Of a stretch of DNA of 64,000 nucleotides, positions 3,415-48,020 are shown one piece after another. The first letter of the stretch is position 1. Each line of letters starts with the position of its first letter. The position numbers and the translations under genes are program-made. The notes under the pieces are model-generated. The model saw only the letters and a program-made list of their open reading frames with translations. It made no database searches and was not told the DNA's origin. Source of the stretch: Telopea speciosissima. Taxonomy: Eukaryota; Streptophyta; Magnoliopsida; Proteales; Proteaceae. The DNA lies in NCBI RefSeq assembly GCF_018873765.1, contig NC_057923.1, forward strand, positions 58,832,593-58,896,592. Direction: 5' to 3'.

Positions 3415-4165
3415 TTGAGAAAAAGCACACAGCTTAGTCGTGTGGAAAAATTATTGCCCCGCCCCTTTGTAAAATTAAAAAACTCATTCATATTGATGCC
3501 TTCTTGCGCTAATTATGAGGTTCAAGGAAACAACAACCTGCATTGGAAACACCCACCTGCAGGTTGGTGGAACCTTAGCATAGACGGCTCCTCTTTGGGG
3601 AACCCAGGAGCTACTGGAGCGGGGGGATTTTTTAGAAACCATATGGGCTCAATAGCTAAATGTTTTGCCACTTACCAAGGGATTGGAACAAACTTTATGA
3701 CAGAGATGGGGGCGTTCATGGAGGGAGTAAAAAAAGCCAGGAATCTGCACATTACAAAGTTCTGGATGGAAAGTGGCTTGGCTGCAGTGGTATATGCTAT
3801 CCTCTCTTATAAGATTCCATGGATTTTTATGCAAGAATGGTGGTCCATTTCTATTTTTTTGGACTCTATTCAGTGGAGAATCACGCACTGCTATCGGGAA
3901 GCTAATGTAGCCACTGATGCATTAGCAAATCATGCGGCTAAAAGCAAGATTTCAAGCACTTGGCTAGCTCCTCCGCCTCTCATCACTGAGGCTGTATTTT
4001 GAGATGTTACTGGCCGACCTAATTATAGATTCACTTGACATCCTCTTTTGAGCTGTAAATCCCTTTGAGGGGTTTTAAGTTGGACCTTCTGTTCTCTTTG
4101 TATCACTATATTTTTCATTTTCATATCGATACATTGCTGACCTTTAACACAAAAAAAAAAAAAAA
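3415..4165 (+). pseudogene. 5'-truncated LINE: RNase H domain and 3' tail
   Basis: The frame 3415-4002 (195 residues) contains a reverse-transcriptase-associated RNase H domain (RVT_3 type): WNLSIDGSSLGNPGATGAGG, then an MTEMGAFMEG helix, and a C-terminal REANVATDALANHA. Family acidic residues are visible in SIDGSS, MTEMG and ATDALA. The ESGLAAVV segment has lost the aspartate expected in ETDS-like motifs, so the domain is probably inactive. A ~150-bp 3' UTR leads to a poly(A) run at 4151-4165. Endonuclease and reverse transcriptase are absent, the usual 5' truncation of an L1-type element. It sits inside the Mutator-like element, so it was either inserted there or carried along. Confidence 0.85.
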
Positions 4166-6055: not shown

Positions 6056-8137
6056 CCAAAAGTTTTGCTAGGCGATTTTCCATGGAAGTGCTACGAAACA
6101 TAGCTGGCTTATAGCCCATCTCATTCATGGGGGAAGCGGAAGAATTTTCTGGGGGTGCTGTGGGGCTCTCTGTTGATGTGATAGGAGAAGTTGGTATTGT
6201 ACATGGTGGTGAAGATGGCCTGAATGTTGACGGTGCTGCACATGGTGGTGGTCCAAGTGGTGGCGTAGCGGTTAGTAAGAGATTGAATGGTGTGTCCTGG
6301 TCCTCCCTCTTCTCTTCTCCTCTTCTCACAGAAGAGATGAAGGTCACCTTTCGTTTATTGAACCGGTTATAGTTGATGGTAAAGCTGTTGCGCGGTGTTC
6401 TTTATCTTCAATTCAAGGTGAGATGGTGAAATGGAAGAATACCCTGATGGGTCATTTTATTGGGAGGAGGCCATCATTTAATGCTACCAAAGAAAGTTTG
6501 GTGAAACAATGGAGGATCTCTGGTCATGTTGATTTTAATGTGCTTGATAGTGGATGGTTTGTATTCCGCTTTAACTTGGAGGAAGACAAATTAAAGGCCT
6601 TAGAAGGGAGGCCATGGTATGTTTAGAAGCGGCCGTTAATTTTACGTCCTTGGAGTCCTTCTTCCTCAATGGAGAAGATTGATTTGTGCACTGTGCCTGT
6701 ATGGATTAGTTTGCCGAACTTACCATTCCATTATTGGACGACTGAAACCTTAAGTATCATTGGTAGTGTTATAGGTAAACCAATCACTATTGATAAAATG
6801 ACAAAATCTATGGAAAGACTGTCTTTTGCTCGAATTTGTGTTGAAGTTTCTGCTGCGAATGATTTACCAAATTCAGTGGATGTCCCTGATGATGAAGGGA
6901 TGGTCTTCAATCAAAAGGTTCTATATGAATGGAAACCGCCAAGATGTAAGCATTGTAGTGTCTTTGGTCACTCATCACTCCAATGCGGGTTGAATGACGG
7001 TGCTAAAGTGGTTGTGAAAACCGTTCAGGGGGGTGGCCAGAGGACGAAGTGGAGGTTGAAGAGGGGTGCTGAAGGTAATGCTCCCCAAGTTGCTGCCAAG
7101 GGTGGCGTTCCACCATCTTCAGTGGTGGTTTTGAGTGGGGGTGATGGTTATCTGGCAGCCGGCCAGGGTGGCAAGGGGTTGAAACAAATTTCACAATTTC
7201 AAGATTCAAATTTAAATTTGGGAACCATTGGAGATAATAGAGGGAAGTTGGTTATTGTTGATAATGCTTTTGCGTTGTTGGCGGACTTGGAGGAGGATTC
7301 GTTGGAGTCCAATACTGAAGATATTGGTGCTGATTTGGTAGGTAAAGATTCGTCTATCAAAGATGTTAATCATCTTGATCCCATTGTGGATTCTCATACG
7401 GCTGTAGATAAGGATGATGGTAATCAATATAGCGAATTTAATGCAACAAGGAATATGGGATTTAAAAGTAATGATGAGGTGGAGATTGAGTTGGGAAAGG
7501 AGTCTTTATATTCAAATAAGGAGAGATTTTCTCACATAGGTGGGTCAGATGGAGTGGATTCGGGCCTAAATATGGGTATGGGTTCTACTTGTGCATTTGG
7601 GTCAGATGTGGGCAGGTCGGATTATGACCAATTTGTTCAAGAGGAGATGCAAGGTGGGTGGACTCAGGTGTTGGGTCGAAATAATCGTGATGGCTGTAGG
7701 AATGCCCCGCGAGGTGGTCGTGTGGGTTGCCATATTGGTAGAACTCGACGACAAAAGAAGGCAAAGTCTGGTGTTAAAGCAGTGGACACGGCAGTAGAAA
7801 AACCTCTGGTTGAAAAGGAGACTTCATCTCCCTTTTCACTAGAGGAGGAGGCTCTTTTGGTTCGTGTGGCTTTTGATCGGCCTGGTGTATCTACTGAGAT
7901 CCCCCAACGATCAAATAGGACAAGAACCCCTTCGGTGCGCCTCGCAAATCCCCCGTAGCCTTGGTTTATTATTTTCTCTCGAGTAAGCGAGTGGCTTGAA
8001 GCCCTCGCCAATATGGTTTAGGAGTGAGTTCCCCCTTTTTAAGCTTTAGTTTTCTTTGCCAATATTCTGTCATAGGCTTGGTTGCCGCCTTTTATATATT
8101 CAATAAAATTTCTCTTTTTTATTAAAAAAATAAAAAA
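6056..8137 (+). mobile_element. ORF1-only LINE (HAL1-like), inserted with target duplication
   Basis: The element holds a decayed L1-type ORF1, a short 3' UTR containing CAATAAAATTTC and an A-rich tail ending at 8137. It is flanked by TACAGCTTTTGGGCA (6041-6055) and TACAACTTTTGGGGCA (8138-8153), an imperfect target duplication of about 15 bp. ORF2 (endonuclease, reverse transcriptase, RNase H) is missing: only about 180 bp separate the ORF1 stop from the tail. Because both ends look like a retroposition product, the ORF2-less RNA was probably mobilised in trans. Confidence 0.75.
6127..7958 (+). pseudogene. LINE ORF1 protein (DUF4283 plus CCHC zinc knuckle), broken
   Basis: In order: an N-terminal Gly-rich stretch with GVSWSSLF; a DUF4283 region including VKWKNTLMGHFIGRRPSF, WYV and KIDLCTVPVWISLPNLPFHY; the zinc knuckle CKHCSVFGHSSLQC near 6945-6986 (CX2CX4HX4C, intact); then a long acidic, low-complexity tail ending RTRTPSVRLANPP at 7958. 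Two lesions are visible: a one-base frameshift near 6345-6352, where the frame changes before a GKAVARCSLSSIQGEMVKW segment, and an in-frame TAG at 6624-6626 after WYV. The family binds element RNA for retrotransposition. The remaining 429-codon frame from 6669 is open, so decay is modest. Confidence 0.85.
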
Positions 8138-8153
8138 TACAACTTTTGGGGCA

Positions 8154-9988: not shown

Positions 9989-10138
9989 CAACGGTAAGGT
10001 TTCTCCATTGTGACCAAGTGGTCACGTGTTTGAGTCAGTAAATAGCCTCTCTGCAAAGCGGGGGTAGGACTATGTACATTATGATCCTCCTCAGACCCCG
10101 CAGTGGCAGGAGCCTCATGCACTGAATACGCCTTAATA
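9989..10138 (+). mobile_element. tRNA-derived SINE
   Basis: The head CGGTAAGGTTTCTCC and CACGTGTTTGAGTCA resemble polymerase III boxes A and B. The body contains GCCTCTCTGCAAAGCGGGG and CCCCGCAGTGGCAGGAGCC. It is flanked by AGAGGAATTTT (9978-9988) and AGATGAATTTT (10139-10149), a 10/11 target duplication. A second copy lies inverted at 46835-46967. Confidence 0.85.
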
Positions 10139-11547: not shown

Positions 11548-11632
11548 TGTCATGTTAAATCCGTGCCCAAAACCCGGTTTGAAACGCGATCTGACCACCG
11601 GTCTGGTTTAAACCTTTTGTGTAGAACCAAGA

Positions 11633-11845
11633 GTGGAGTACGCTCGTGAATTGTGGGTCATAATACTCAAGCCATCACACGAGATTATCAACCGCGAAAC
11701 AGGGGAAGTCCTCGAGGAAAGATCCACCATCAGAGAAAGGGGGAAAATCGTCCACGAAAGCATATTCTTGGAATTCCCTTATGATAGGGATCCGCGGGGC
11801 CCGCACTTGAATCGCCCTTATCCACTTGGCGATGATTGGGAGTAA
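11633..11845 (+). CDS. Conserved 70-residue ORF in the left LTR
   Basis: The frame begins MEYARELWVIILKPSHEI and ends YPLGDDWE. The product is highly charged with no membrane segment. The same frame in the right LTR differs by one residue (Asn to Asp). I recognise no domain. LTR identity alone explains the conservation, so this is not evidence of function, and expression is unknown. Confidence 0.3.
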   Translation: MEYARELWVIILKPSHEIINRETGEVLEERSTIRERGKIVHESIFLEFPYDRDPRGPHLNRPYPLGDDWE

Positions 11846-12294
11846 GTCACTATCCGAATAATTCATGCCTATGCATGACCATTAATAAGCATAAGAACTA
11901 GAATGGGCTTGGGCTTAGGAGCTTAGTCTCTTTCTAATTGTAACTAGAACTTAGGACATGGGCCATGGGCCATGGGCCCAAGTGGATCCAATGGCCCAAT
12001 GACTTAAACTAGACCTTGGGCTTATACCTAACCAAACAAGCTCCTAAACAAATGGACCTAAGGACTTGAGACTAACCAAACAAGACCTAATGCCTAGATG
12101 GGTTATTAAAGACCCAAAACTACTATTCACCTCACATTTCAATCCTAAATCGTGGAGAGGAGAGGAGAAAAAGAAAGAAGAAGAAAGAGAAGAAGAAAGA
12201 AGAAGAAGAAAGAAGGAGAAAGAAGAAGAGGAAGAAGGAAGGAGAAGGGGGAAGTATGGTGGAGCACAAGCTATCATCATCAACCATTGGTGAG

Positions 12295-12332
<38 letters not shown>

Positions 12333-12837
12333 TCTCTTTCCCTAATTCTATTACCTAGGGTTTGAATTGGTTGAGCACACCTTGAGTGCTCCATCTACTC
12401 AATTAGAAGAGCCATTAATGGCAAATCCTTGATGTTTAACTATGAAGCACCTAACCCTACCTTAAACCCATTCACCCTTCTCCATTTATGAACCCTAAGT
12501 TGGGGATTTACCTCCATTTATGGGTTTTACCAACCCTCATGGAAGACCGTAGATGTGTGGGTTTGAGGGATGTTAAATAACATTGATTAAAGACCCTTTC
12601 AAAACCCCAATACCCAAACCCATGAGTTTTCTTTTCATATGTATTTTAATGGAGGAAAACCTAATCGATCATGGGGTTTACAAATCCATGTTGGGTGTGT
12701 GTTATGGCACCTTGGTTGGAGTTGTTCTCATGGCCAAAGAGACCCCTAAAAAACCCCAAAGAATACCCCATTTTAGCCCAAGACTTTGGGGCTGCAAAAC
12801 CATTCTCGGAATGGCATGAACAGCAAGACTGGCACGT

Positions 12838-13075
12838 GGACAGGCACATGCAAGTGCCAGTCCCTGAGAAATTAGATCTGCCGGTGGGAAGTCTGAGAGG
12901 GACAGGCACATGGACAGGCACATGCAAGTGCCACCCGAGAAAGATTTGCGTGGGAGGTCCGAGAGGGACAGCACATGGACAGCACATGCAAGTGCGTACC
13001 CCGAGAACCTAGATCTCCGGTGGGAAAGTCCGAGAGGGACAGCACATGGACAGGCACATGGACAGCACATGATAT
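12838..13075. repeat. Tandem repeat array in the left LTR
   Basis: Three to four units of about 70 bp are each built from GACAGGCACATG, CAAGTGCCAGTCCCTGAG and GCCGGTGGGAAGTC. In this copy several units lack single G or C residues that are present at 18479-18722. Confidence 0.8.
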
Positions 13076-14221
13076 AGCCTTGCTGTATGTGCCGGTCCCC
13101 TATTTTAGCCTTGTTTGATAACTTATGGGGCCCAACTCTTCTAGCCCTAAGGCACTAATCTCTCCCCACGTTGTACACTCTCTTTAGGTTGACTGACCCG
13201 GCTCGGGGGCGTATTAGTACGTGGGACAGTGTACTTGGCATCGAACGTCGATTTGAAGAGCTCCGTATTGACGATTGACTGAGAATCAGGTGAGTGAGTT
13301 AAGCAAACGTCTTAATTTATGGAATGTTTGTGTGTCATGTCTTGCGAATGTCATTCATGCATGTGTACTATAATATATAATTATTAGTAAGATATAGGAC
13401 GATATAAATGTTTAGATGTTGATAGGACTTTACATTCTTGTCTTGCGATATTATTTATTTTACTGCACTATGGTGCGAATGGTGTTGGATTTAGTTATGG
13501 GACTCGGGTGCCGGTTGGGCTTGGACCGAGGATTCCATAATATGGACTCACTCATGGCATGTAGATCTAGGGCTTCAAGCGGGATCCAAGTGCCGGTGGG
13601 TCTTGGGCTTGAGATTGCCGTACTTGAAATTGCATTAGAGTTGTCCATTGCATTAGGTGGAAACGGGATGGTGACCGACCGACTGCCTTCGGTATTCACA
13701 TCTCGTACTTGTATACGTACGTATGGGCTAGAGGGGCGAGAGGATAGCCGGCCGACCGTATTTCGGTATCTATGGACTCGGCCTCTGGCCTATGCACATG
13801 CGTACCTCACTCATACAATAGGTGAATACTGGCTAGGATAAATGTTTACCCAGTACTATGACCCTTACCGACAGGGGGTTAGGTGTCGGTCAAATCCGTG
13901 GGTTCCGACCGTTATTCGGGTATACCCACCCGGGAAGTTCGGGCGCCAACCGTATTTTGGGCCGAACGCCAGGACGGGATTTGACTCGGGGGTTTGCGTA
14001 TATCTCTTGGTGGAGACCGGTCAGCGAGGCTTCAGCGCGACTCGGGTTTGTCATCGCCGGTATACCATCCGTTTATGGTACCGATGTCGGGGATGCTACC
14101 TAAGGTGTTGCTATAGTACTATACCTGACTTAGTTGTGTGTTAGGTGGATAACAATAAAACTATACATCATCATTCATTCATGTAGCATGATTGTAAATT
14201 GTATGTGATGTACGGTCTACC

Positions 14222-14506
14222 TTGGTGGTATGGGACACCTTGGTATCCTTCCATCATGTATGGTTTGCAGTCAACCCCATTCATTATTATTATTGTGTAT
14301 GCTTGTGTGGCTTAGCCACTCATTGGGCTCAGTTGGAGCTCACTCCTCGAGGAAACATATTTTTTTTAGTTGATTCAGGTACATTCGAGCATGACGGCAC
14401 GGAGTTCAAGACTCCTGATGAAGGTCATGAAGAGTGGTGGACTTTGAAGTATGAGGATCATGGACCGGAGTGCTACTGTGAGATGTGTTCCACGAGGGAA
14501 CAGTGA
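14222..14506 (+). CDS. Conserved 94-residue ORF in the left LTR
   Basis: The frame runs from MVVWDTLVSFHHVWF to CEMCSTREQ and is identical in the right LTR. Its C-terminal half (EHDGTEFKTPDEGHEEWW, then CYCEMC) is acidic with a C-X-C-X2-C cluster. The sequence TTTTTTTAGTTGATTCAG before GTACATTCG also resembles a 3' splice site, so this could be leader sequence rather than a gene. No family is recognised. Confidence 0.3.
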   Translation: MVVWDTLVSFHHVWFAVNPIHYYYCVCLCGLATHWAQLELTPRGNIFFLVDSGTFEHDGTEFKTPDEGHEEWWTLKYEDHGPECYCEMCSTREQ

Positions 14507-14857
14507 TTCTTGGCTGGTGGCCATCTTTTGTTACACTTTGATAAACTATTTTCTGATTCAAAGGTGTATTCTTTTATTCCTTTCTTGATAAGTGTATTTA
14601 TTATACAGTGATAATACATAGATCCTGATTAGAACCCATTGATATGAAAGGGTAAATTTGAATAGACAATATTTTATATGCTATCACCTAGCTTCTGCTA
14701 ACTCTGATGTTATTAATATTAATCCTTTCCTTTTACCTATTATTTGTCGTTGTGAATGAGTTAGTCTTGGGTCTTGCATCGGTGATGAGGTGGTTAGAGA
14801 GCGTATTGGTATGCTCCAGTTGCATTCCCGTGGTTCAGGGATGGGGGTGTGACAGCT

Positions 14858-17182: not shown

Positions 17183-17195
17183 AAGGTGGGGAGGA
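17183..17195 (+). promoter_or_regulatory. Polypurine tract
   Basis: AAGGTGGGGAGGA lies immediately before the right LTR and is the plus-strand primer of reverse transcription; the T at 17187 is the only non-purine. Confidence 0.85.
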
Positions 17196-17935
17196 TGTTA
17201 AATCCGTGCCCAAAACCCGGTTTGAAACGCGATCTGACCACCGGTCTGGTTTAAACCTTTTGTGTAGAACCAAGAGTGGAGTACGCTCGTGAATTGTGGG
17301 TCATAATACTCAAGCCATCACACGAGATTATCGACCGCGAAACAGGGGAAGTCCTCGAGGAAAGATCCACCATCAGAGAAAGGGGGAAAATCGTCCACGA
17401 AAGCATATTCTTGGAATTCCCTTATGATAGGGATCCGCGGGGCCCGCACTTGAATCGCCCTTATCCACTTGGCGATGATTGGGAGTAAGTCACTATCCGA
17501 ATAATTCATGCCTATGCATGACCATTAATAAGCATAAGAACTAGAATGGGCTTGGGCTTAGGAGCTTAGTCTCTTTCTAATTGTAACTAGAACTTAGGAC
17601 ATGGGCCATGGGCCATGGGCCCAAGTGGATCCAATGGCCCAATGACTTAAACTAGACCTTGGGCTTATACCTAACCAAACAAGCTCCTAAACAAATGGAC
17701 CTAAGGACTTGAGACTAACCAAACAAGACCTAATGCCTAGATGGGTTATTAAAGACCCAAAACTACTATTCACCTCACATTTCAATCCTAAATCGTGGAG
17801 AGGAGAGGAGAAAAAGAAAGAAGAAGAAAGAGAAGAAGAAAGAAGAAGAAGAAAGAAGGAGAAAGAAGAAGAGGAAGAAGGAAGGAGAAGGGGGAAGTAT
17901 GGTGGAGCACAAGCTATCATCATCAACCATTGGTG

Positions 17936-17973
<38 letters not shown>

Positions 17974-20497
17974 TCTCTTTCCCTAATTCTATTACCTAGG
18001 GTTTGAATTGGTTGAGCACACCTTGAGTGCTCCATCTACTCAATTAGAAGAGCCATTAATGGCAAATCCTTGATGTTTAACTATGAAGCACCTAACCCTA
18101 CCTTAAACCCATTCACCCTTCTCCATTTATGAACCCTAAGTTGGGGATTTACCTCCATTTATGGGTTTTACCAACCCTCATGGAAGACCGTAGATGTGTG
18201 GGTTTGAGGGATGTTAAATAACATTGATTAAAGACCCTTTCAAAACCCCAATACCCAAACCCATGAGTTTTCTTTTCATATGTATTTTAATGGAGGAAAA
18301 CCTAATCGATCATGGGGTTTACAAATCCATGTTGGGTGTGTGTTATGGCACCTTGGTTGGAGTTGTTCTCATGGCCAAAGAGACCCCTAAAAAACCCCAA
18401 AGAATACCCCATTTTAGCCCAAGACTTTGGGGCTGCAAAACCATTCTCGGAATGGCATGAACAGCAAGACTGGCACGTGGACAGGCACATGCAAGTGCCA
18501 GTCCCTGAGAAATTAGATCTGCCGGTGGGAAGTCTGAGAGGGACAGGCACATGGACAGGCACATGCAAGTGCCAGTCCCTGAGAAAGATTTGCCGGTGGG
18601 AGGTCCGAGAGGGACAGGCACATGGACAGGCACATGCAAGTGCCAGTCCCTGAGAACCTAGATCTGCCGGTGGGAAAGTCCGAGAGGGACAGGCACATGG
18701 ACAGGCACATGGACAGGCACATGATATAGCCTTGCTGTATGTGCCGGTCCCCTATTTTAGCCTTGTTTGATAACTTATGGGGCCCAACTCTTCTAGCCCT
18801 AAGGCACTAATCTCTCCCCACGTTGTACACTCTCTTTAGGTTGACTGACCCGGCTCGGGGGCGTATTAGTACGTGGGACAGTGTACTTGGCATCGAACGT
18901 CGATTTGAAGAGCTCCGTATTGACGATTGACTGAGAATCAGGTGAGTGAGTTAAGCAAACGTCTTAATTTATGGAATGTTTGTGTGTCGTGTCTTGCGAA
19001 TGTCATTCATGCATGTGTACTATAATATATAATTATTAGTAAGATATAGGACGATATAAATGTTTAGATGTTGATAGGACTTTACATTCTTGTCTTGCGA
19101 TATTATTTATTTTAGCACTATGGTGCGAATGGTGTTGGATTTAGTTATGGGACTCGGTGCGGTTGGTCTTGGACCGAGGATTCCATAATATGGACTCACT
19201 CATGGCATGTAGATCTAGGGCTTCAAGCGGGATCCAAGTGCGGTGGGTCTTGGGCTTGAGATTGCCGTACTTGAAATTGCATTAGAGTTGTCCATTGCAT
19301 TAGGTGGAAACGGGATGGTGACCGACCGAGCGCCTTCGGTATTCACATCTCGTACTTGTATACGTACGTATGGGCTAGAGGGGCGAGAGGATAGCCGGCC
19401 GACCGTATTTCGGTATCTATGGACTCGGCCTCGGCCTATGCACATGCGTACCTCACTCATACAATAGGTGAATCTGGCTAGGATAAATGTTTACCCAGAT
19501 ACTATGACCCTTACCGAGCGGGGTTAGGTGTCGGTCAAATCCGTGGGTTCCGACCGTTATTCGGGTATACCCACCGGGAAGTTCGGCGCCAACCGTATTT
19601 TGGGCCGAACGCCGGGACGGGATTTGACTCGGGGTTTGCGTATATCTCTTGGTGGAGACCGTACACGAGGCTTCAGTAGCGACTCGGGTTTGTCATCGCG
19701 GTATACCATCCGTTTATGGTACCGATGTCGGGGATGCTACCTAAGGTGTTGCTATAGTACTATACCTGACTTAGTTGTGTGTTAGGTGGATAACAATAAA
19801 ACTATACATCATCATTCATTCATGTAGCATGATTGTAAATTGTATGTGATGTACGGTCTACCTTGGTGGTATGGGACACCTTGGTATCCTTCCATCATGT
19901 ATGGTTTGCAGTCAACCCCATTCATTATTATTATTGTGTATGCTTGTGTGGCTTAGCCACTCATTGGGCTCAGTTGGAGCTCACTCCTCGAGGAAACATA
20001 TTTTTTTTAGTTGATTCAGGTACATTCGAGCATGACGGCACGGAGTTCAAGACTCCTGATGAAGGTCATGAAGAGTGGTGGACTTTGAAGTATGAGGATC
20101 ATGGACCGGAGTGCTACTGTGAGATGTGTTCCACGAGGGAACAGTGATTCTTGGCTGGTGGCCATCTTTTGTTACACTTTGATAAACTATTTTCTGATTC
20201 AAAGGTGTATTCTTTTATTCCTTTCTTGATAAGTGTATTTATTATACAGTGATAATACATAGATCCTGATTAGAACCCATTGATATGAAAGGGTAAATTT
20301 GAATAGACAATATTTTATATGCTATCACCTAGCTTCTGCTAACTCTGATGTTATTAATATTAATCCTTTCCTTTTACCTATTATTTGTCGTTGTGAATGA
20401 GTTAGTCTTGGGTACTGCATCAGTGATTCTGGTGGTTAGAGAGCGTATTGGTATGCTCCAGTTGCATTCCCCGTGGTTCAGGGATGGGGGTGTGACA
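17196..20497 (+). repeat. Right LTR (~3.3 kb)
   Basis: Copy of the left LTR. It includes frames 17276-17488 and 19863-20147, matching those at 11633 and 14222, and the tandem array 18479-18722 in a more regular state. Relative to the left copy it lacks bases in the 19140-19680 stretch. Confidence 0.95.
18479..18722. repeat. Tandem repeat array in the right LTR
   Basis: Three full units of about 62-74 bp plus a partial one. Each unit carries one or more GACAGGCACATG blocks, then CAAGTGCCAGTCCCTGAG and a CCGGTGGGA segment. This copy is more regular than the left-LTR array. Confidence 0.85.
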
Positions 20498-25359: not shown

Positions 25360-27079
25360 TTAAGAGAAGTTGATTTGGTATTTGGGTTGTTTATTTGGAG
25401 AGAATAACCCCCAATGCTTCTCTTCCTCTGGATTCTTATTGTTCTCATCAAACAGAGCAAACACATAAGTCTCTAAAGATCCAGGCTTCTTAGGAGTCCC
25501 ACTCTTCACATGTTGAATCAGATTGTTATTATAAATCCTTCCATTCTCTACTGTTGTTGCAGTACCTCCAGCAGTTGGCCAACCACTCTCTGATATAACA
25601 AGTCCAACACTTGAACCACCTGCCTTCTCCATAGCAGAGTAAAGAGCATCAACAATGGCATCAAAAAGGTTTTTATATCCAAGCTTACTGTATTGATCTT
25701 GCACCACAACTGATGAAGAAGTAAATAAGGCATAGGAAAGTTGAATTGAAGCAGTGTTGGCTTTGTAACTGAAGTAAGGATACACATTTGCTAGTAATGG
25801 AGACCCATTTTGAGCAAGGAAAGCAATAATTGGGTCTATATATGACCTTACATCACCTCTAAATGCTCCTTGGGATGGTGGGTATGAGGTGCCAAGGAGT
25901 CCAGTTTCAATGGATGTGGTCACTTGGATTTTCAGGCCAGCTGATGTAATTGCAGAGCGAATGTTTCTCATCGCCGGTAGAACGAAATTTACGTACTTAG
26001 AATTGCCATTCACCGGACTTACTTCATTACCGACGGCGATATACCGGAATCTGACATTAGATGAGTAAGCTACCACATTTGTTTGTACCCAATTATTTGC
26101 AGTGGAAGTGCTTGTTGCTATGCCTTGAAGGGCATCATTTGGGACACCCAAGATGAGTTCAATGTTGGAGCCTCTGAGAGCTTGAAGAGCTGCTTGGTTT
26201 GGATCATAGAGTCTCATTCTTAAGATGTTTCGGGATTTGTAGAGAGCCACCACTTGTTGTGGAGATGGTAAATTGTTTCCATTCATCCCATAACAAACAC
26301 CTGTTTGTGCCCCTGCATTAGATTGAGAGCTAGAAAGTTAATCTGATGTGATAAGAATTGAAACTTTGGTTGCCTTGATCTCAACCCAAAAATACTGAGC
26401 ATAAAGTTGCCACTATGCACTATATGTAGAAAACAAAAAAAAAATGAACCTATAAATCTATAATGCACACAAAAAGTTTTACGCCGGTTCAACAAGATTG
26501 TCTACGTCCACAATGAGATGAGATCTACTTCTCTATCAATGGAGAATAAGGTTAAAATTGGTCATCCCCGCACTTCTCTCAGATTGCTTACTTAGAAAGA
26601 ACAATCACTACAAATTTATAGTGAAACCTTATACAGATAATTTACCAAAATACCCTTTGGGCCTCGAGGCCTTCGACCTCTTAGTGGCCTTCCAGAACCA
26701 GCCCACTTAGACAAGTATCAATGGAGAAAGAACTATCGCTACAAATTTATAGTGAAACCCTATACAGATAATTTACCAAAATACCCTCTGGGCCTCGAGG
26801 CCTTCGACCTCTTAATGCCCTTTCAGAATCAGCCCACTTAGACAAGTATCAATGGAGAATAAGGTTAAAACTAGTCATACTCAGACCTCTCTCAGATTAC
26901 TTACGGATAAAGAACCATCGCCATAAATTTATAGTGAAAACCTATACAGATAATTTACCAAAATACCCTCTAGGCCTCGAGGCCATCGACCTCTTAATGG
27001 CCTTTCAGAATCAGCCCACTTAGACAAGTATTAGGAATAAAAGACAGTGTACCCCAACACTATACACTATGCCATATTC

Positions 27080-27110
<31 letters not shown>

Positions 27111-27202
27111 ATGTCTAAGCTGGACATTAGAAGCCCCAGAAGAAGAAGCATGGTAGCAGCAACAGAGGGGCAGTGGGTTTCTAGTGCAGAAAATGTAGTC
27201 AT
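25360..27202 (-). CDS. Glucan endo-1,3-beta-glucosidase (GH17), gene 1
   Basis: Two exons: 27106-27202 (ATG at 27202) and 25360-26312, with a 793-bp intron starting GTCTCT and ending ATGCAG. The product has 349 residues. Residues 1-33 are a signal peptide with the core [16 protein letters not shown], and the mature enzyme begins AQTGVCYG. The proton donor is Glu129 in YIAVGNEVS and the nucleophile Glu274 in VISESGWPT, both intact; other landmarks are [11 protein letters not shown] and FALFDENNK. It ends NFS with no C-terminal vacuolar extension, so it is probably secreted. The family hydrolyses beta-1,3-glucan (callose, fungal walls; PR-2). Genes 2 and 3 downstream are paralogues with the same exon 2 length (953 nt). 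Confidence 0.95.
26535..27033. repeat. Triplicated repeat inside the intron of glucanase gene 1
   Basis: Three tandem copies (about 26535-26716, 26717-26847, 26848-27033) share TTATAGTGAAA, ACAGATAATTTACCAAAATA, GGCCTCGAGGCC and CAGCCCACTTAGACAAGTAT. The middle copy lacks the first third. A related single copy at about 38830-39060 outside the cluster indicates a transposon-derived repeat. Confidence 0.75.
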
Positions 27203-27245
27203 GATGAAGGAAAACAAGAAGCTTAGATAGTTACTGATGTATTTT

Positions 27246-27631
27246 ATCACAAACATTTGAGCCTCTTATATAGGGAGAGATGGACCCCAGAGCTTATAAT
27301 CTTCCAAGACCCACATTATCAGAGTCAAGAACTATTGAAATTTGGTTCATGGAGACTTAGAATTTTCAGAAACTTGAATCGCAGCCGGCCACCATGTGAT
27401 TAAAAGGAATGAGTGGGATATTTAGTCCTGTTTCAGTTATCACAAACATTTGAGCCTCTTATATAGGGAGAGATGGACCCCAGAGCTTATAATCTTCCAA
27501 GACCCATATTATCAGAGTCAAGAACTATTGAAATTTGGTTCATGGAGACTTAGAATTTTCAGAAACTTGAATCGCAGCCGGCCACCATGTGATTAAAAGG
27601 AATGAGTGGGATATTTAGTCCTGTTTCAGTT
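27246..27631. repeat. 193-bp tandem duplication of the gene 1 promoter
   Basis: 27246-27438 is repeated at 27439-27631 with a single substitution seen (CCCACATT versus CCCATATT). Each unit contains the TATA box and the segment immediately upstream. The outer copy is therefore a second complete core promoter 193 bp further from the gene. Confidence 0.95.
27266..27272 (-). promoter_or_regulatory. TATA box of glucanase gene 1 (duplicated at 27459-27465)
   Basis: TATATAA on the minus strand, 64 bp before the ATG, in CCCTATATAAGAGGC. The same motif with TATATA extended is found before gene 2, and both precede AGAGGC. Confidence 0.8.
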
Positions 27632-35489: not shown

Positions 35490-36629
35490 TTAAGAGAAGC
35501 TGATTTGATATTTGGGTTGTTTGTTGGGAGAGAAAAGACCCCAATGTTTCTCCAGTTCTGGAGTCTTTTGGTTCTCATCAAACATGGCAAAGATATAAGT
35601 CTCTATAGGTCTTCCAGGCCTTTTAGGAGTACCATTCTTCACACGTTGAATCAATTTGGAGTTGTAAGTTTGTGCATTTTGCACTGAAGTCCCAACATCT
35701 CCTTCAGTTGGCCAACCACTCTCTGATACAACTATCTCAACAGAACCACCACCATCTTTCTCAAGAGCTGAGTATAAAGCATCAACCAAAGCATCAAAAA
35801 GGTTTTGGTAACCTTTTCCATCATCTTGAACGACAACTGATGGAGAAGTAAACAAGGCATAGGAAAGCTGGATGTTTCGTTGGTCATCTTTGTAACTGAT
35901 GTAAGGATAGACATTAGCAAGAAGTGGTGCACCATTGCTAGCAAGGAAGCTTATAATTGGGTCTATAAACGACTTGGCATCGTCTTTGAAGACACCATGG
36001 GATGGAGGATAAGTGTTTCCAAGGATTGCAGAATAAGTAGCTGTTGAGACTTTGATTTGATTTTGTAGACCAGCTGATGTAATTACACTTTGGATATTTC
36101 GCATTGCAGGGAGAACATACTGAGCTTTGCCGTCGCCGTCGCTGGGAAGTACTTCGTTACCGACGGCGATGTACTTGAATTTGACACTGGGTAAGTAGGG
36201 TTTTATGTTCTTTTGCACCCAATCATTTGCAGTATTAGTACTACTTGCTATGGCTTGAAGTTGATCATTTGGAACACCCAAGATGAGTTCAATGTTGGAA
36301 TCTCTAAGGGCTTGGAGAGCTCCATCGTTTGGAGCATAAAGCCTCATTCTTCCAATGTTTGATGATTTGTAAAGATTCACAACTTCTTGTGGAGATGGTA
36401 AATTGTTGCCTAGTGTTCCATAGCAAACCCCTGTTTGTGCACCTGCATTATTAGATTGAGAAAAGCTTAGAAAATGAGGTTTACATTAAACACAATTAAG
36501 CTAGAGACCCTTAATTTTGCTACACAGACCTGTAATGTCTAGGCTACCCATTAGTAGCCCAAAGAGAAGCAAGAGTATTGTGGCAGCAACTGGAGGGCTA
36601 TTGTTTGTTGTTGCAGAGAATGTAGCCAT
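35490..36629 (-). CDS. Glucan endo-1,3-beta-glucosidase (GH17), gene 2
   Basis: Exons 36530-36629 (ATG at 36629) and 35490-36442 flank an 87-bp intron (GTCTGT to ATGCAG). The product has 350 residues. The signal peptide has the core [19 protein letters not shown]; the mature start is [13 protein letters not shown]. The acid Glu130 in [11 protein letters not shown] and the nucleophile Glu274 in VVSESGWPT are both present. It ends YQISFS without a vacuolar extension, so an apoplastic enzyme is likely. Closest in sequence to gene 3 (44687), with which it shares flanking sequence; gene 1 is more divergent. Intron position matches gene 1, but the intron is much shorter. Confidence 0.95.
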
Positions 36630-43765: not shown

Positions 43766-44686
43766 TTTTTAAGTTCTCAAAGAATTCCAATTTTCTATCA
43801 CATCATTGAAGCAAAATACAGGAATATTACAATTTTGTGTATCTTTATAAACCCATATCATCACTTAAGCACAAGTTATACTCTAAAACTATTTTTCTTG
43901 TATTTTGTTTTTCTGGTCTCACCTTTTTCAAATGATGTTCAGTCATAATCAAAAACCTCGTCAAATAACAAATAAATAGACCATTATATCAAAATCACAG
44001 CCCCGAGGAATGTGAACCTTGACTCTTTCCATGAATGGGTCAAAATTTTATATCCAATCTTTAATTCAAGACAAGTTATACCCTTTCGTATAATTAATAA
44101 CTTCTATGATCTTATAGATATATACTTGGAATAGTGGCAGAGAGTGACCCAGTAAGAAGTATGGGGGCTAGATCCATTCACTCACGACCCTCAAATCATC
44201 AAGGTAAAGAAAAACCCTAATTCCGATGGGGAAGAAGAGCAAACAAAACAATTTAGATCATAAACTTTAAGATACTTTATTTCATCCAAAACTATACTTA
44301 TTTAAGGAGGTCGGATTACAAAGGGAAACGGAAACGAACTAATATAGAAAAAATAAAGTAAGAACCTAAAACTTTTAAATCGCACACAAAACTTCAAAAG
44401 CCCGGTACACCCCTTAAATGATGGAATTTGACCCCTTAAACTTCAGAAATCCGACATTGCTGACATTCCCAAAAAGATATTATAGCTCCTGTAACTCTAC
44501 CTGAGTCAAAAGTTACAGCTCTCAGAAGTAAACGCCGACAAATTAGTACTCCCGATTTAGGAATTCTTTAGAGATCTTCTCTACGTCAGAGAGTATTATT
44601 TTACTAGACGTTTCAAACTTAGGTTGAACAGACAGACATGAGTATTTAACTCTTATTTTAAGATGATAAGCTTCCCATTATCAATC

Positions 44687-45833
44687 TTAAGAGAAGCTGA
44701 TTTGATATTTGGGTTGTTTGTTGGGAGAGAAAAGACCCCAATGTTTCTCCAGCTCTGGAGTCTTTTGGTTCTCATCAAACATGGCAAAGATATAAGTCTC
44801 TATAGGTCTTCCAGGCCTTTTAGGAGTACCATTCTTCACATGTTGAATCAGTTTTGAATTGTAAGTTTGTGCATTTTGCACCGAGGTCCCAACATGTCCT
44901 TCAGTTGGCCAACCAGTCTCTGATACAACTAGCTCAACAGAACCACCACCATTCTTCTCAAGAGCAGAGTAGAAAGCATCAACCATAGCATGAAAAAGGT
45001 TTTGGTACCCTCGTCCACCATCTGGAACCACAACTGATGGAGAAGTAAACAAGGCATAGGGAAGCTGGATGTCACGTTGGTTATCTTTGTAACTGAAGTA
45101 AGGATACACATTAGCAAGAAGTGGTGCACCATTGCTAGCAAGGAATCTTATAATTGGGTCTATAAAGGACTTCACATCGTCTCTGAAGGCACCATGGGAT
45201 GGAGGGTAAGTGTTTGTTAGGATTGGAGAATAAGTTGCCGTTGACACTTTGATTTGGTTTTGTAGACCAGCTGATGCAATTGCACTTTGTATATTTCGCA
45301 TTGCAGGGAGAACAAACTGAGCTTTGCCGTCGCCGTCGCTGGGAAGTACTTCATTGCCGACGGCAATATACCTAAATTAAATTTTTTTTTTTCGGATGAA
45401 TGGTTAATATATTCAACAAAGCCCAGGAACTCTTTCCCCCAAAAAAATGGAAGAAAGAAAGAAAAAAAAAAAAACAGAAGCAAAAGATGGAGTAAACTCC
45501 ACAATAAACAACGGCATATCCCTACAGCTGAATCAAGTTATAAGGAAAATCCGTATGATTAATACCTGAATTTGACACTAGGTGAGTAGGCTTTTACGTT
45601 CCTTTGTACCCAATTATTTGCAGTGTTAGTACTACTTGCTATGCCTTGAAGCTGATCGTTTGGGACATCCAAGATGAGTTCAATGTTGGAGTCTCTAAGG
45701 GCTTGGAGAGCTGCATCATTTGGAGCATAAAGCCTCATTCTTCCAATGTTTGATGATTTATAAAGATTCACAACTTCCCGTGGAGATGGTAAATTGTTAC
45801 CTAGTGATCCATAACAAACGCCTATTTGTGCAC
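44687..45833 (-). pseudogene. Glucan endo-1,3-beta-glucosidase (GH17), gene 3: no signal-peptide exon, gained intron
   Basis: Exon 2 is present in two pieces, 45566-45833 (268 nt) and 44687-45371 (685 nt). They sum to 953 nt, exactly the exon 2 length of genes 1 and 2, and are separated by a 194-bp GT-AG insert. Spliced, the frame is open from [13 protein letters not shown] to YQISFS. The acid Glu in [11 protein letters not shown] and the nucleophile Glu in VVSETGWPT are kept. The signal-peptide exon is not found within the following 2.2 kb; the sequence after the AG acceptor at 45834-45835 diverges from gene 2 and runs into LTR-like sequence. The domain could still be transcribed, but without exon 1 the product would not be secreted normally, so I call it a probable pseudogene. 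It is the closest paralogue of gene 2. Confidence 0.85.
45372..45565 (-). other. Recently gained intron (194-bp insertion with AGGTAT duplication)
   Basis: On the minus strand the coding sequence reads AAATTCAG|GTATTAATC at the left junction and TTAATTTAG|GTATATTGCC at the right. Removing everything between the bars restores AAATTCAGGTATATTGCC, encoding KFRYIA, which matches genes 1 and 2 at this spot; neither has an intron here. AATTCAGGTAT and AATTTAGGTAT flank the insert as an 11-bp target duplication with one mismatch, so the duplicated AG|GT provides both splice sites. A TTAAC branch-point-like motif lies about 35 nt before the acceptor. The inserted element has no recognised family. Confidence 0.8.
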
Positions 45834-46104
45834 CTGCATTAGATTGAGAAAAAAACTAGGTTGGTTTTGAATGGAGGAGAGAGTGAAGTAACAACTATGT
45901 CATTTTCATTGAAAAGTGAAGTGATAGTAATGAAAAGAAGAAAAAAAAGGAAGAAGCCTCAATAAAGAGATTTCAAGTGGGAAATCTGTCTCTGAGTTTG
46001 CTGACAGCCAAAGGTAGAGGGATTATCACAATAATCAAAACATTAAACCAGCAATAAATCGGCTCAAGAACGCAATGGCAAAACCATATCTTTGATATCA
46101 CATG

Positions 46105-46492
46105 TTGGATTTGAATCCTTATTCACACAAACATAAAATTGAATGTTGTCTTTGCGTTCATGAATCACAAACAATAGAGAGAGAAATAATATATACCGTT
46201 CACCATTGGAACTTCTAGGTTTCTCCCTCTTCTTCTCCGTCAATGTTTCTCAATGATGGTATCGATATGATAACCCTTGAGACAAAGGGAGGACCTAGAG
46301 TCCTATTTATAAAGATAGTAATGCAAACTCCCATCAAGGTATGTGAGATATGGCAAGATTTTATTCCCTTAGTTGGATAAGAATGAGTTTCGTAATTAAA
46401 TCAAAGTCTACATTGAAATATACTTTGCAAACAAATTATGGTCATGTGGGACAAATAATTGGAATTAAATAATTAATTCCTATACTACAATA
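46105..46492. mobile_element. LTR-like insertion upstream of glucanase gene 3
   Basis: It starts TGTTGGATTTGAATCC and ends near CCTATACTACA, with an internal TTTATAAATAGG (minus) TATA-like box. The duplicated block resumes at about 46500. No target duplication was confirmed. It occupies the region where the exon 1 and promoter of gene 3 should be. Confidence 0.4.
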
Positions 46493-46499
46493 GCGAAGA

Positions 46500-48020
46500 C
46501 TTCCTTGTCAAAAAAAAACAATAGCAAAGACCTGACTGACTTGGTAAAAGCATAGAAGTCAGATTTTATGGATTGGTGGTAGAACAATTAAGCCAATGGC
46601 CCTTGGAAACAACTGCTTCCTTATAGAAAGTCTCCAAGGACAAATTGATGTTGCTGGCAGAATGAGGCCACTTGGTTCTACAATTTCCCTTCAATTCTAC
46701 ATGGAATGAGGTCTTAGTCTTCTATTTATTGTATTGATAATGCCCACCACTTACTCCAATCGTGCATTATGGAGGACTCAGTCAAGATAATCAGATTCTT
46801 CAGGGCATCCTGAGATGAGATCATTGTTCAGTTTAAAAAAGGGCATACTCAGTGCACAAGGCTCCTGCCACTGCAGGGTCTAGGGAGGCTCATAATGTAC
46901 ACAGCCTTACCCCTGCTTTCACAGAGAGACTTTTTTCCAGACTCGAACCAGTGACCACTTGGTCACAAGATCATTGTTCAGTTTCTGAATGATAAAAGAA
47001 ACCCTTTATTGCTCACTGCATTCACCGTAGATGTAAACTAATTTGGCAGGTCTTACTATAAGTTTCAGTTCCAGACAAGCTCCTAGGCTTTCTGGTCCAA
47101 GTTCCTTACCTGGTTTAAAAAAATCATGACACAAATTGGGCTCCATCAGCTTGACCAGGGAAGAAGAACTGTGTAGTCACTTTGAGCAAAACAGCTTCCA
47201 TGACTTGAATTGAGTTGGGACCTCCTCTATCCAGAATCACTCTCATTATGAAAGCTTGAGTTTGTCACTCAGGACTCGGAATACCACTGTGGTAAAGTTG
47301 ATAGTTTGTTTTTTCAATTTAGTTAAGTAATGTTTTCACAATTTCTACCACATAAAAATGATAAGTCACAGAAAGCTAGCACTAAACAACAAAAATGATT
47401 TACCAGCAGATTGTCAGGCCCAATATGTGTACATAATAACCTTTAAATATAAATTAATGCAATAATTGAAAACATATTTTCATGTCTATGGATTAAAATA
47501 TTTAGTTTTGGTACTGATATACATAAAAAATACCCCTCCAGTAGATGATCGACACGTGGCAGAAGACTACTTAAACTCTCAACCGTCAAAGGATTCAAAG
47601 CTCTCTCATCACACATCTGTTATTGAGAGAGCGCCCCATTACAAAGAAAGGGACTCCTCCACCGCCTCTCCTCCTATGAATATGAAGATAAAGCTTAAGA
47701 TAAGTGGTTGGAAAAAATCCAGGCAACTCAAAAACGCTCTTTTCGTACTCCCTCCACAAATGATTATATGTTGCTCAGGTCTGACTTATGCATCGGGAGT
47801 CCCCCTCGAAGTCCGCACCAGGTCTCTTCAGTGTCTTTTATCATTTTGCAGGACGTCCACATCATCGGGTCAGATTTCAGCTGCAACAGGTACAAAGAGG
47901 AAGCAACCCTTTAGAAAAAGTACTGGAAATTTTTTTCCTAGTCTGCAAAGTTCCTTACTGCACACTTGATCGTGCAACCTGGAAGGGCAACGTGGCAATT
48001 CCAGGCATTGATATATAGAG
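46500..48020. repeat. Upstream arm of duplicated block, copy B
   Basis: Co-linear with 40530-42560. It contains its own insertions relative to copy A: a SINE (46835-46967) and about 370 bp at 47530-47900 (TACCCCTCCAGTAGATGATC to TTTCAGCTGCAACAGG) of unknown origin. The open frame 47466-47969 spans copy B sequence and that insert and is not a convincing gene. Confidence 0.85.
46835..46967 (-). mobile_element. tRNA-derived SINE (same family as 9989-10138)
   Basis: Perfect 17-bp target duplication AGATCATTGTTCAGTTT at 46818-46834 and 46968-46984. On the minus strand it reads GACCAAGTGGTCACTGGTTCG (box B-like) through CTGCAGTGGCAGGAGCC to a T run. It lacks the first ~20 bp of the other copy. The empty site is seen in copy A at 41546-41570. 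Confidence 0.95.

Follow-up and report, generated by a model that had tools for sequence, protein, structure and literature searches.

Plant intron gains with a recognizable source are rare, despite the cases of a SINE in rice and of Ds in maize. The coding region of the rice CatA gene is described as having acquired an intron from a SINE (Iwamoto 1998, cited in PMC2394776 and PMC3443670), and a Ds element in a maize exon as being spliced out there (Giroux 1994). The Introners form families of similar introns (at least four each in that study) that are mostly DNA-transposon-like; they duplicate their target, and some families draw both splice sites from the insertion site (PMC9860276, Fig. 2E). 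The new introns of Daphnia carry repeats of 4–12 bp joining intron end and exon, include parallel gains at the same sites and are attributed to staggered double-strand breaks (PMC4202315). With respect to plants, a 2014 survey of grasses states that no proposed fixed intron gain had been tied to a transposable element (PMC4256211), and our own literature search came upon no plant coding intron derived from a LINE, although such a case may be in print.

Here we describe a candidate intron of this sort in the waratah, Telopea speciosissima. The window, that is, the whole stretch of 64,000 nucleotides analyzed (C8:58832593-58896592), holds a cluster of three GH17 β-1,3-glucanase genes (Pfam PF00332), the third of which, gene 3, lies on the minus strand and carries an insert (Table 1); genome-wide searches covered the 823-Mb assembly. 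As in rice CatA, a retroposon seems to have entered a plant coding exon, but here the intron is a candidate one, its source would be a LINE-type 3' end, both terminal dinucleotides are supplied by the duplicated target, and genes of a distant clade have an intron at the very same site. Maize Ds is likewise a plant transposable element in an exon, but, unlike our insert, a DNA transposon. The Introners share the target duplication with gene 3, whereas in the poly(A)-tailed family of its insert a single intron-like copy is known; the Daphnia introns have similar boundary repeats, whereas the source in gene 3 is a recognizable repeat family. We consider it probable that a LINE 3' end inserted with a target duplication that supplied AG|GT splice sites, and so made a new intron. 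Events of this kind have precedents, but two aspects deserve follow-up, namely the LINE as source and the match with an old intron position. A single genome here shows the source family, the two copies of the target, the paralogues with an empty site and the splice signals, and the match in position bears on the choice between shared ancestry and repeated hits on proto-splice sites.

Table 1. Features of the glucanase cluster discussed in the text (positions in the window)
Feature	Position	Strand	Basis or remark
Gene 1, intact	25360..27202	-	exon 1 ~27104-27202; main exon without insert; P0022
Gene 2, intact	35490..36629	-	exon 1 36530-36629; main exon 35490-36442 without insert; P0003
Gene 3, main exon after insert, 685 nt with stop	44687..45371	-	alignment to paralogues
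Gene 3, downstream target copy AATTTAG|GTAT, candidate 3' splice site	45368..45378	-	repeat comparison
Gene 3, 194-nt insert, candidate intron 2, GT...AG	45372..45565	-	direct reading, alignment, P0002
A11 tail of element	45382..45392	-	3 nt before downstream target copy
Part shared with most of the 39 further copies (query ~11-182), LINE-type 3' end	45383..45553	-	sense to gene
TTAAC, branch-point-like, A at -33	45403..45407	-	inside conserved motif of element
Gene 3, upstream target copy AATTCAG|GTAT, candidate 5' splice site	45562..45572	-	repeat comparison
Gene 3, main exon before insert, 268 nt	45566..45833	-	alignment to paralogues
LTR-like sequence, 387 nt, TG...CA ends, TATAAATA	46103..46489	-	in the place of the promoter, exon 1 and intron 1 of gene 2

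The insert and its target repeat

Read on the minus strand, the junctions of the insert are GTGTCAAATTCAG|GTATTAATC...TTTAATTTAG|GTATATTGCC. An earlier note on this DNA had placed a 194-bp insert at this junction, between exon pieces summing to 953 nt and flanked by an 11-bp repeat AATT(C/T)AGGTAT; direct reading and paralogue alignment bear out all of this (268 + 685 nt; one mismatch in the repeat). When the two exon pieces of gene 3 are joined and 7 nt of intron 1 are included, the alignment with gene 2 covers 960 positions, shows no change of length and has 92.1% identity; that with gene 1 has 75.3% over 974 columns. Left unspliced, its frame runs into an immediate stop (KFRY*). While seven GT-AG removals of at least 60 nt would keep a frame open to the stop, that of 194 nt alone restores all 319 codons. 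That removal restores the frame, as the note had claimed, is thus true, but it is no sign of splicing, since the removal of any insertion together with one target copy would do the same.

In a simulation that took GT and AG ends from the non-coding DNA of the window, the chance of a boundary repeat this good was 0.0001 if any coding position was allowed, 0.0045–0.0054 for AG|G sites and 0.012–0.016 given a site that is already AG|GT. The 953-nt exon has two AGGT sites, and AGGT lies inside 16 of its 943 possible 11-mers. The insertion and the repeat origin of the insert are well supported, and the earlier proposal stands, according to which the insertion duplicated its target and the resulting copies are able to supply GT and AG. 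We attach next to no weight to an assembly error, as a mis-join is not expected to place such a repeat next to a poly(A) tail.

Searches with the insert inside the window returned low-complexity matches only, and Rfam gave no match for 44500-48000 up to E 1. The insert has no terminal inverted repeats beyond A/T runs and short chance arms. A strong predicted RNA fold (z -3.5) was set aside, its pairing being that of T-runs with A-runs.

The repeat family and its probable LINE-type 3' end

When the whole assembly was searched, as the earlier note had suggested, the insert turned out to belong to a dispersed repeat: 40 of 69 candidates were scored, the insert and at least 39 others, with 70–86% identity. 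These counts are lower bounds, and all 39 other scored copies were aligned with their flanks. In the sense of the gene, the 39 copies have a common tail like GCTTCGTTGAATATATTAATCATTCACCC followed by an A-run (of five or more in 35 of them), where the similarity ends, and their 5' ends vary. About 7 kb of upstream DNA, read for 20 of the 39, has little in common beyond ~285 nt, save in the closely duplicated pair L048/L054. Upstream of the tail, tblastn found LINE-type coding sequence in four of these 20 copies, always in sense and never in antisense: it is ORF1-like in L052 and L056 (1.1–1.8 kb from the tail) and RNase-H-like in L057 (1.3–1.8 kb) and L058 (~4 kb, perhaps unrelated). The two ORF1-like frames are collinear at 43% and match Pfam DUF4283, which we take to be a mark of plant LINE ORF1, and in L056 a reading frame stops where the shared tail starts. 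This is in keeping with a tail that derives from the 3' untranslated region of an L1-type LINE, although the ~7 kb upstream of the 20 copies yielded no full-length element.

The insert, which lies in the sense of the gene, is best read as the poly(A)-tailed end of a retroposon of the L1 type (LINE) that was truncated on its 5' side, and this reading is fairly supported. The earlier note had thought of Introners or DNA transposons; neither source is borne out, and the Introners were dropped because the copies have a common poly(A)-tailed 3' end and differing 5' ends. Break repair should also be considered: in Daphnia, short direct repeats at new introns are taken as its sign (PMC4202315, PMC3443670), and it could also have copied in a LINE tail. 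Nevertheless, that the insert is break-repair filler, a DNA transposon or an Introner seems very improbable, given that the dispersed copies number 40 or more and all end in the same A-tailed way, and that terminal inverted repeats are lacking, as noted above. Nor is the insertion "fresh", as it had been called. The nearest copy is 80% identical, and the insert, 91% identical to the family consensus over two conserved blocks (rank 17 of 40), is an ordinary member of the family and not a young one.

With the LINE as source, the following sequence of events can be proposed. The truncated 3' end would have entered the glucanase main exon by target-primed reverse transcription, the mechanism we infer, and a target of 11 bp or more, AATTCAGGTAT, would have been duplicated. 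As AG|GT was part of this target, both splice sites would come from its copies: the 5' splice site, exon-AG|GT, from the upstream one and the 3' splice site, AG|G-exon, from the downstream one. The element would contribute a T-rich tract and the branch-point-like TTAAC. The transcript would then be spliced there, leaving the same protein and a new, retroposon-made intron.

Target repeats elsewhere in the family lend this weak support, because the copies are old and degraded. For 35 other copies, the 24 nt after the A-run were compared with upstream DNA in matched and mismatched pairs. Four of them (L012, L025, L028 and L044) have a repeat of at least 10 bp, with a score similar to that of the insert or better, starting 0–3 nt after the A-run (P 0.011 each); the one in L012 probably lies inside the element. 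The insert's own repeat, measured in the same way and with every possible upstream end allowed, has P 0.09. The mean repeat score over the copies was 6.34, barely above the 6.03 of the mismatched pairs. A previous scan, in which some 5' ends (the insert's included) were misplaced, had given 2 of 38 copies at P 0.05 or less.

At the 5' junction (45552-45565) the insert reads TATTAATCAT, which is the family consensus near the 3' end of the element; its own copy of that stretch, at 45400-45409, is TATTAACCAT. The junction sequence could be template-jump filler, or the match could be chance. Two further LINE-like sequences lie in the window. The first (6669-7958), an ORF with DUF4283 followed within ~170 bp by an A-rich end (A-run near 8123-8138), looks like an ORF1-only LINE derivative. 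The second (3415-4002), an RNase-H-like ORF (Pfam RVT_3) followed by a short 3' region and an A-run near 4151-4165, is a LINE remnant of another family.

Splice signals and the condition of gene 3

The candidate donor, CAG|GTATTA, scores 7.99, against 8.47 for the intron 1 donor of gene 2; 1.4% of the 6446 GTs in the window equal or exceed it, and it is off consensus at +4 to +6. The acceptor reads TTTAATTTAG|G. Both GT and AG come from the target copies, and the T-rich stretch and TTAAC from the element; judged by the branch consensus, TTAAC is branch-point-like. The empty sites of the relatives read CAA|GTAC (g2 and g4), CAA|GTAT (L075 and L076) and CCG|GTAT (g1); L077, which missed the site, was omitted. 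In gene 3, by contrast, each of the two target copies contains AGGTAT, and an AAG-to-AGG change probably preceded the insertion and made the site spliceable. Most likely the insert would be spliced from the gene 3 transcript and the protein left unchanged, a moderately supported conclusion. Splicing is assumed in the NCBI model P0002, the counterpart of gene 3 among the NCBI-named T. speciosissima proteins that equal or match the three genes (P0022 and P0003 being those of genes 1 and 2). This predicted protein (285 aa) is the gene 3 frame minus 194 nt and begins at an internal methionine, hence without a leader.

The 5' part of gene 3 is another matter. Homology to gene 2 ends at 45852 and restarts at 46518, and up to the window end no signal-peptide exon stands above noise, a point absent from the earlier note. 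The LTR-like sequence has a TATA box inside and a primer-site-like TGATATCAAAGA after it; judging by these motifs, it is presumably part of a copia-type LTR element. Over 45834-46489 of the minus strand, this remnant replaces the promoter, exon 1 and most of intron 1 of gene 3. It also contains ATGGTGAACG|GT (46206 downwards), the phase of which is compatible with the main exon, so that a leaderless, LTR-driven transcript of gene 3 is conceivable. A neighboring repeat (46842-46968), with an 83% match at 10008-10132, resembles an Au-type SINE.

These features raise the possibility that gene 3 is dying or dead, its leader replaced by an LTR retroelement, and that the LINE tail is an unspliced exonic insertion, the AG|GT being luck and the intron of the NCBI model having been placed by software to save the frame. 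Because the signal-peptide exon is lost and an LTR-like sequence stands in its place, this explanation stays serious, although we think it unlikely. On its side are the loss of exon 1 and of the matching upstream DNA, and the internal start of P0002 without a leader. A near-invariant aspartate is also lost: it is present in 103 of 104 homologues and replaced by histidine in gene 3 (of 120 listed proteins, the 106 with 300–400 aa were aligned, and P0003 and P0022 do not enter the counts), although the changes in gene 2 are comparably odd. Finally, downstream of the insert alone, gene 3 has 7 synonymous and 12 nonsynonymous changes, and purifying selection there is not significant (P 0.12). Against it, an 11-bp target containing AGGT would be met by chance at only the 16 of 943 exon positions given above, and a usable donor and a branch-point-like motif exist. 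Moreover, the 319 codons hold neither stop nor frameshift. The dN/dS of gene 3 versus gene 2 is 0.26, and the gene-3-specific changes (13 synonymous, 21 nonsynonymous) give ~0.48 (P 0.031 against neutrality), equal to the ~0.49 of g4, an intact copy at C8:62582531 (14 and 23); gene 2, with 25 and 15 (~0.18), is more constrained than gene 3.

Gene 3 and g4 had been considered as sisters (dS 0.146), but the site patterns for gene 3, g2 and g4 (8, 9 and 13) and the maximum-likelihood tree (g2 + g4 at 76) do not resolve the three copies, and the sister assignment was therefore dropped.

An old intron position in distant GH17 genes

A search of the assembly with gene 2 gave 92 matches. All 10 other close paralogues found (at least 61% identity) are uninterrupted at the site, one having a TAG elsewhere; the intronless state that the earlier note ascribed to the close paralogues thus extends to every other one found in this genome. 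Among more distant GH17 genes (counted from the match table, without weaker fragments), 28 are uninterrupted and 11 start their second exon at residue 81–92. Six of the 11 were read in DNA. Each of them carries a GT...AG intron exactly where the insert of gene 3 lies, in the same codon and likewise behind its second base; in L069 the junctions are ATATCAG|GTATGTT...TTGGCAG|GTATATTGCTGTTGGG. The insert bears no resemblance to the DNA of these six genes, the best match being 18 nt.

We take genes 1–3 to belong to clade beta, and the distant intron-bearing genes to clade alpha. In peach, all clade-beta genes but one have a single intron, and clade-alpha genes mostly two or more (PMC12540407). A study of cotton puts the tobacco PR-type genes into subfamily E, which is equated with clade beta, and describes introns as mostly subfamily-specific (PMC4926093).

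Could gene 3 alone have kept an ancestral GH17 intron that its close paralogues lost, and that a LINE tail later filled? The same codon and phase in a distant clade (6 of 6 genes read) would agree with this, as would the finding of the grass survey that intron losses are more numerous than gains (PMC4256211). However, it requires loss in 10 of 10 close paralogues, singly or in shared steps; the insert is LINE nearly from end to end, with the target repeat on the splice sites; and the single intron of all but one of the peach clade-beta genes (PMC12540407) also speaks against it. We disfavor this explanation and would be surprised if it were correct. Gene conversion from a distant intron-bearing GH17 gene would likewise give the same position and phase, and among the closest copies gene 3 alone reads AGGTATATT at the junction, like L069. 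However, as the insert is unlike the DNA of the six such genes, and none of the 39 other insert copies lies at a GH17 match, such a transfer is scarcely credible. Several changes of gene 3 are clustered at the junction, and the idea that they are a trace of conversion was considered and rejected: TAT also occurs in g1, L075 and L076, and no donor was found.

Since the intron of the distant genes at this codon and phase is unrelated, the candidate intron of gene 3 seems to have come independently to a place where an intron was already old. We lean, with some reserve, toward the view that this position arose twice: anciently in the distant, clade-alpha-like GH17 genes and again in Telopea, through a LINE 3' end at the same AG|GTAT codons before the conserved VGNE. 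If this is true, an intron position in common would be false evidence of common descent in GH17, and the cause could be read from the sequence: AG|GT sites are few, and one is pinned by a conserved motif.

Other repeats in the window include a direct duplication of ~3.3 kb (11552-14854 and 17195-20497; 98.5% identity, offset 5643 bp). Tandem repeat units also occur in intron 1 of gene 1 (26534-27031) and just upstream of its exon 1 (27244-27631), with 195 nt at 99.5% identity for the latter.
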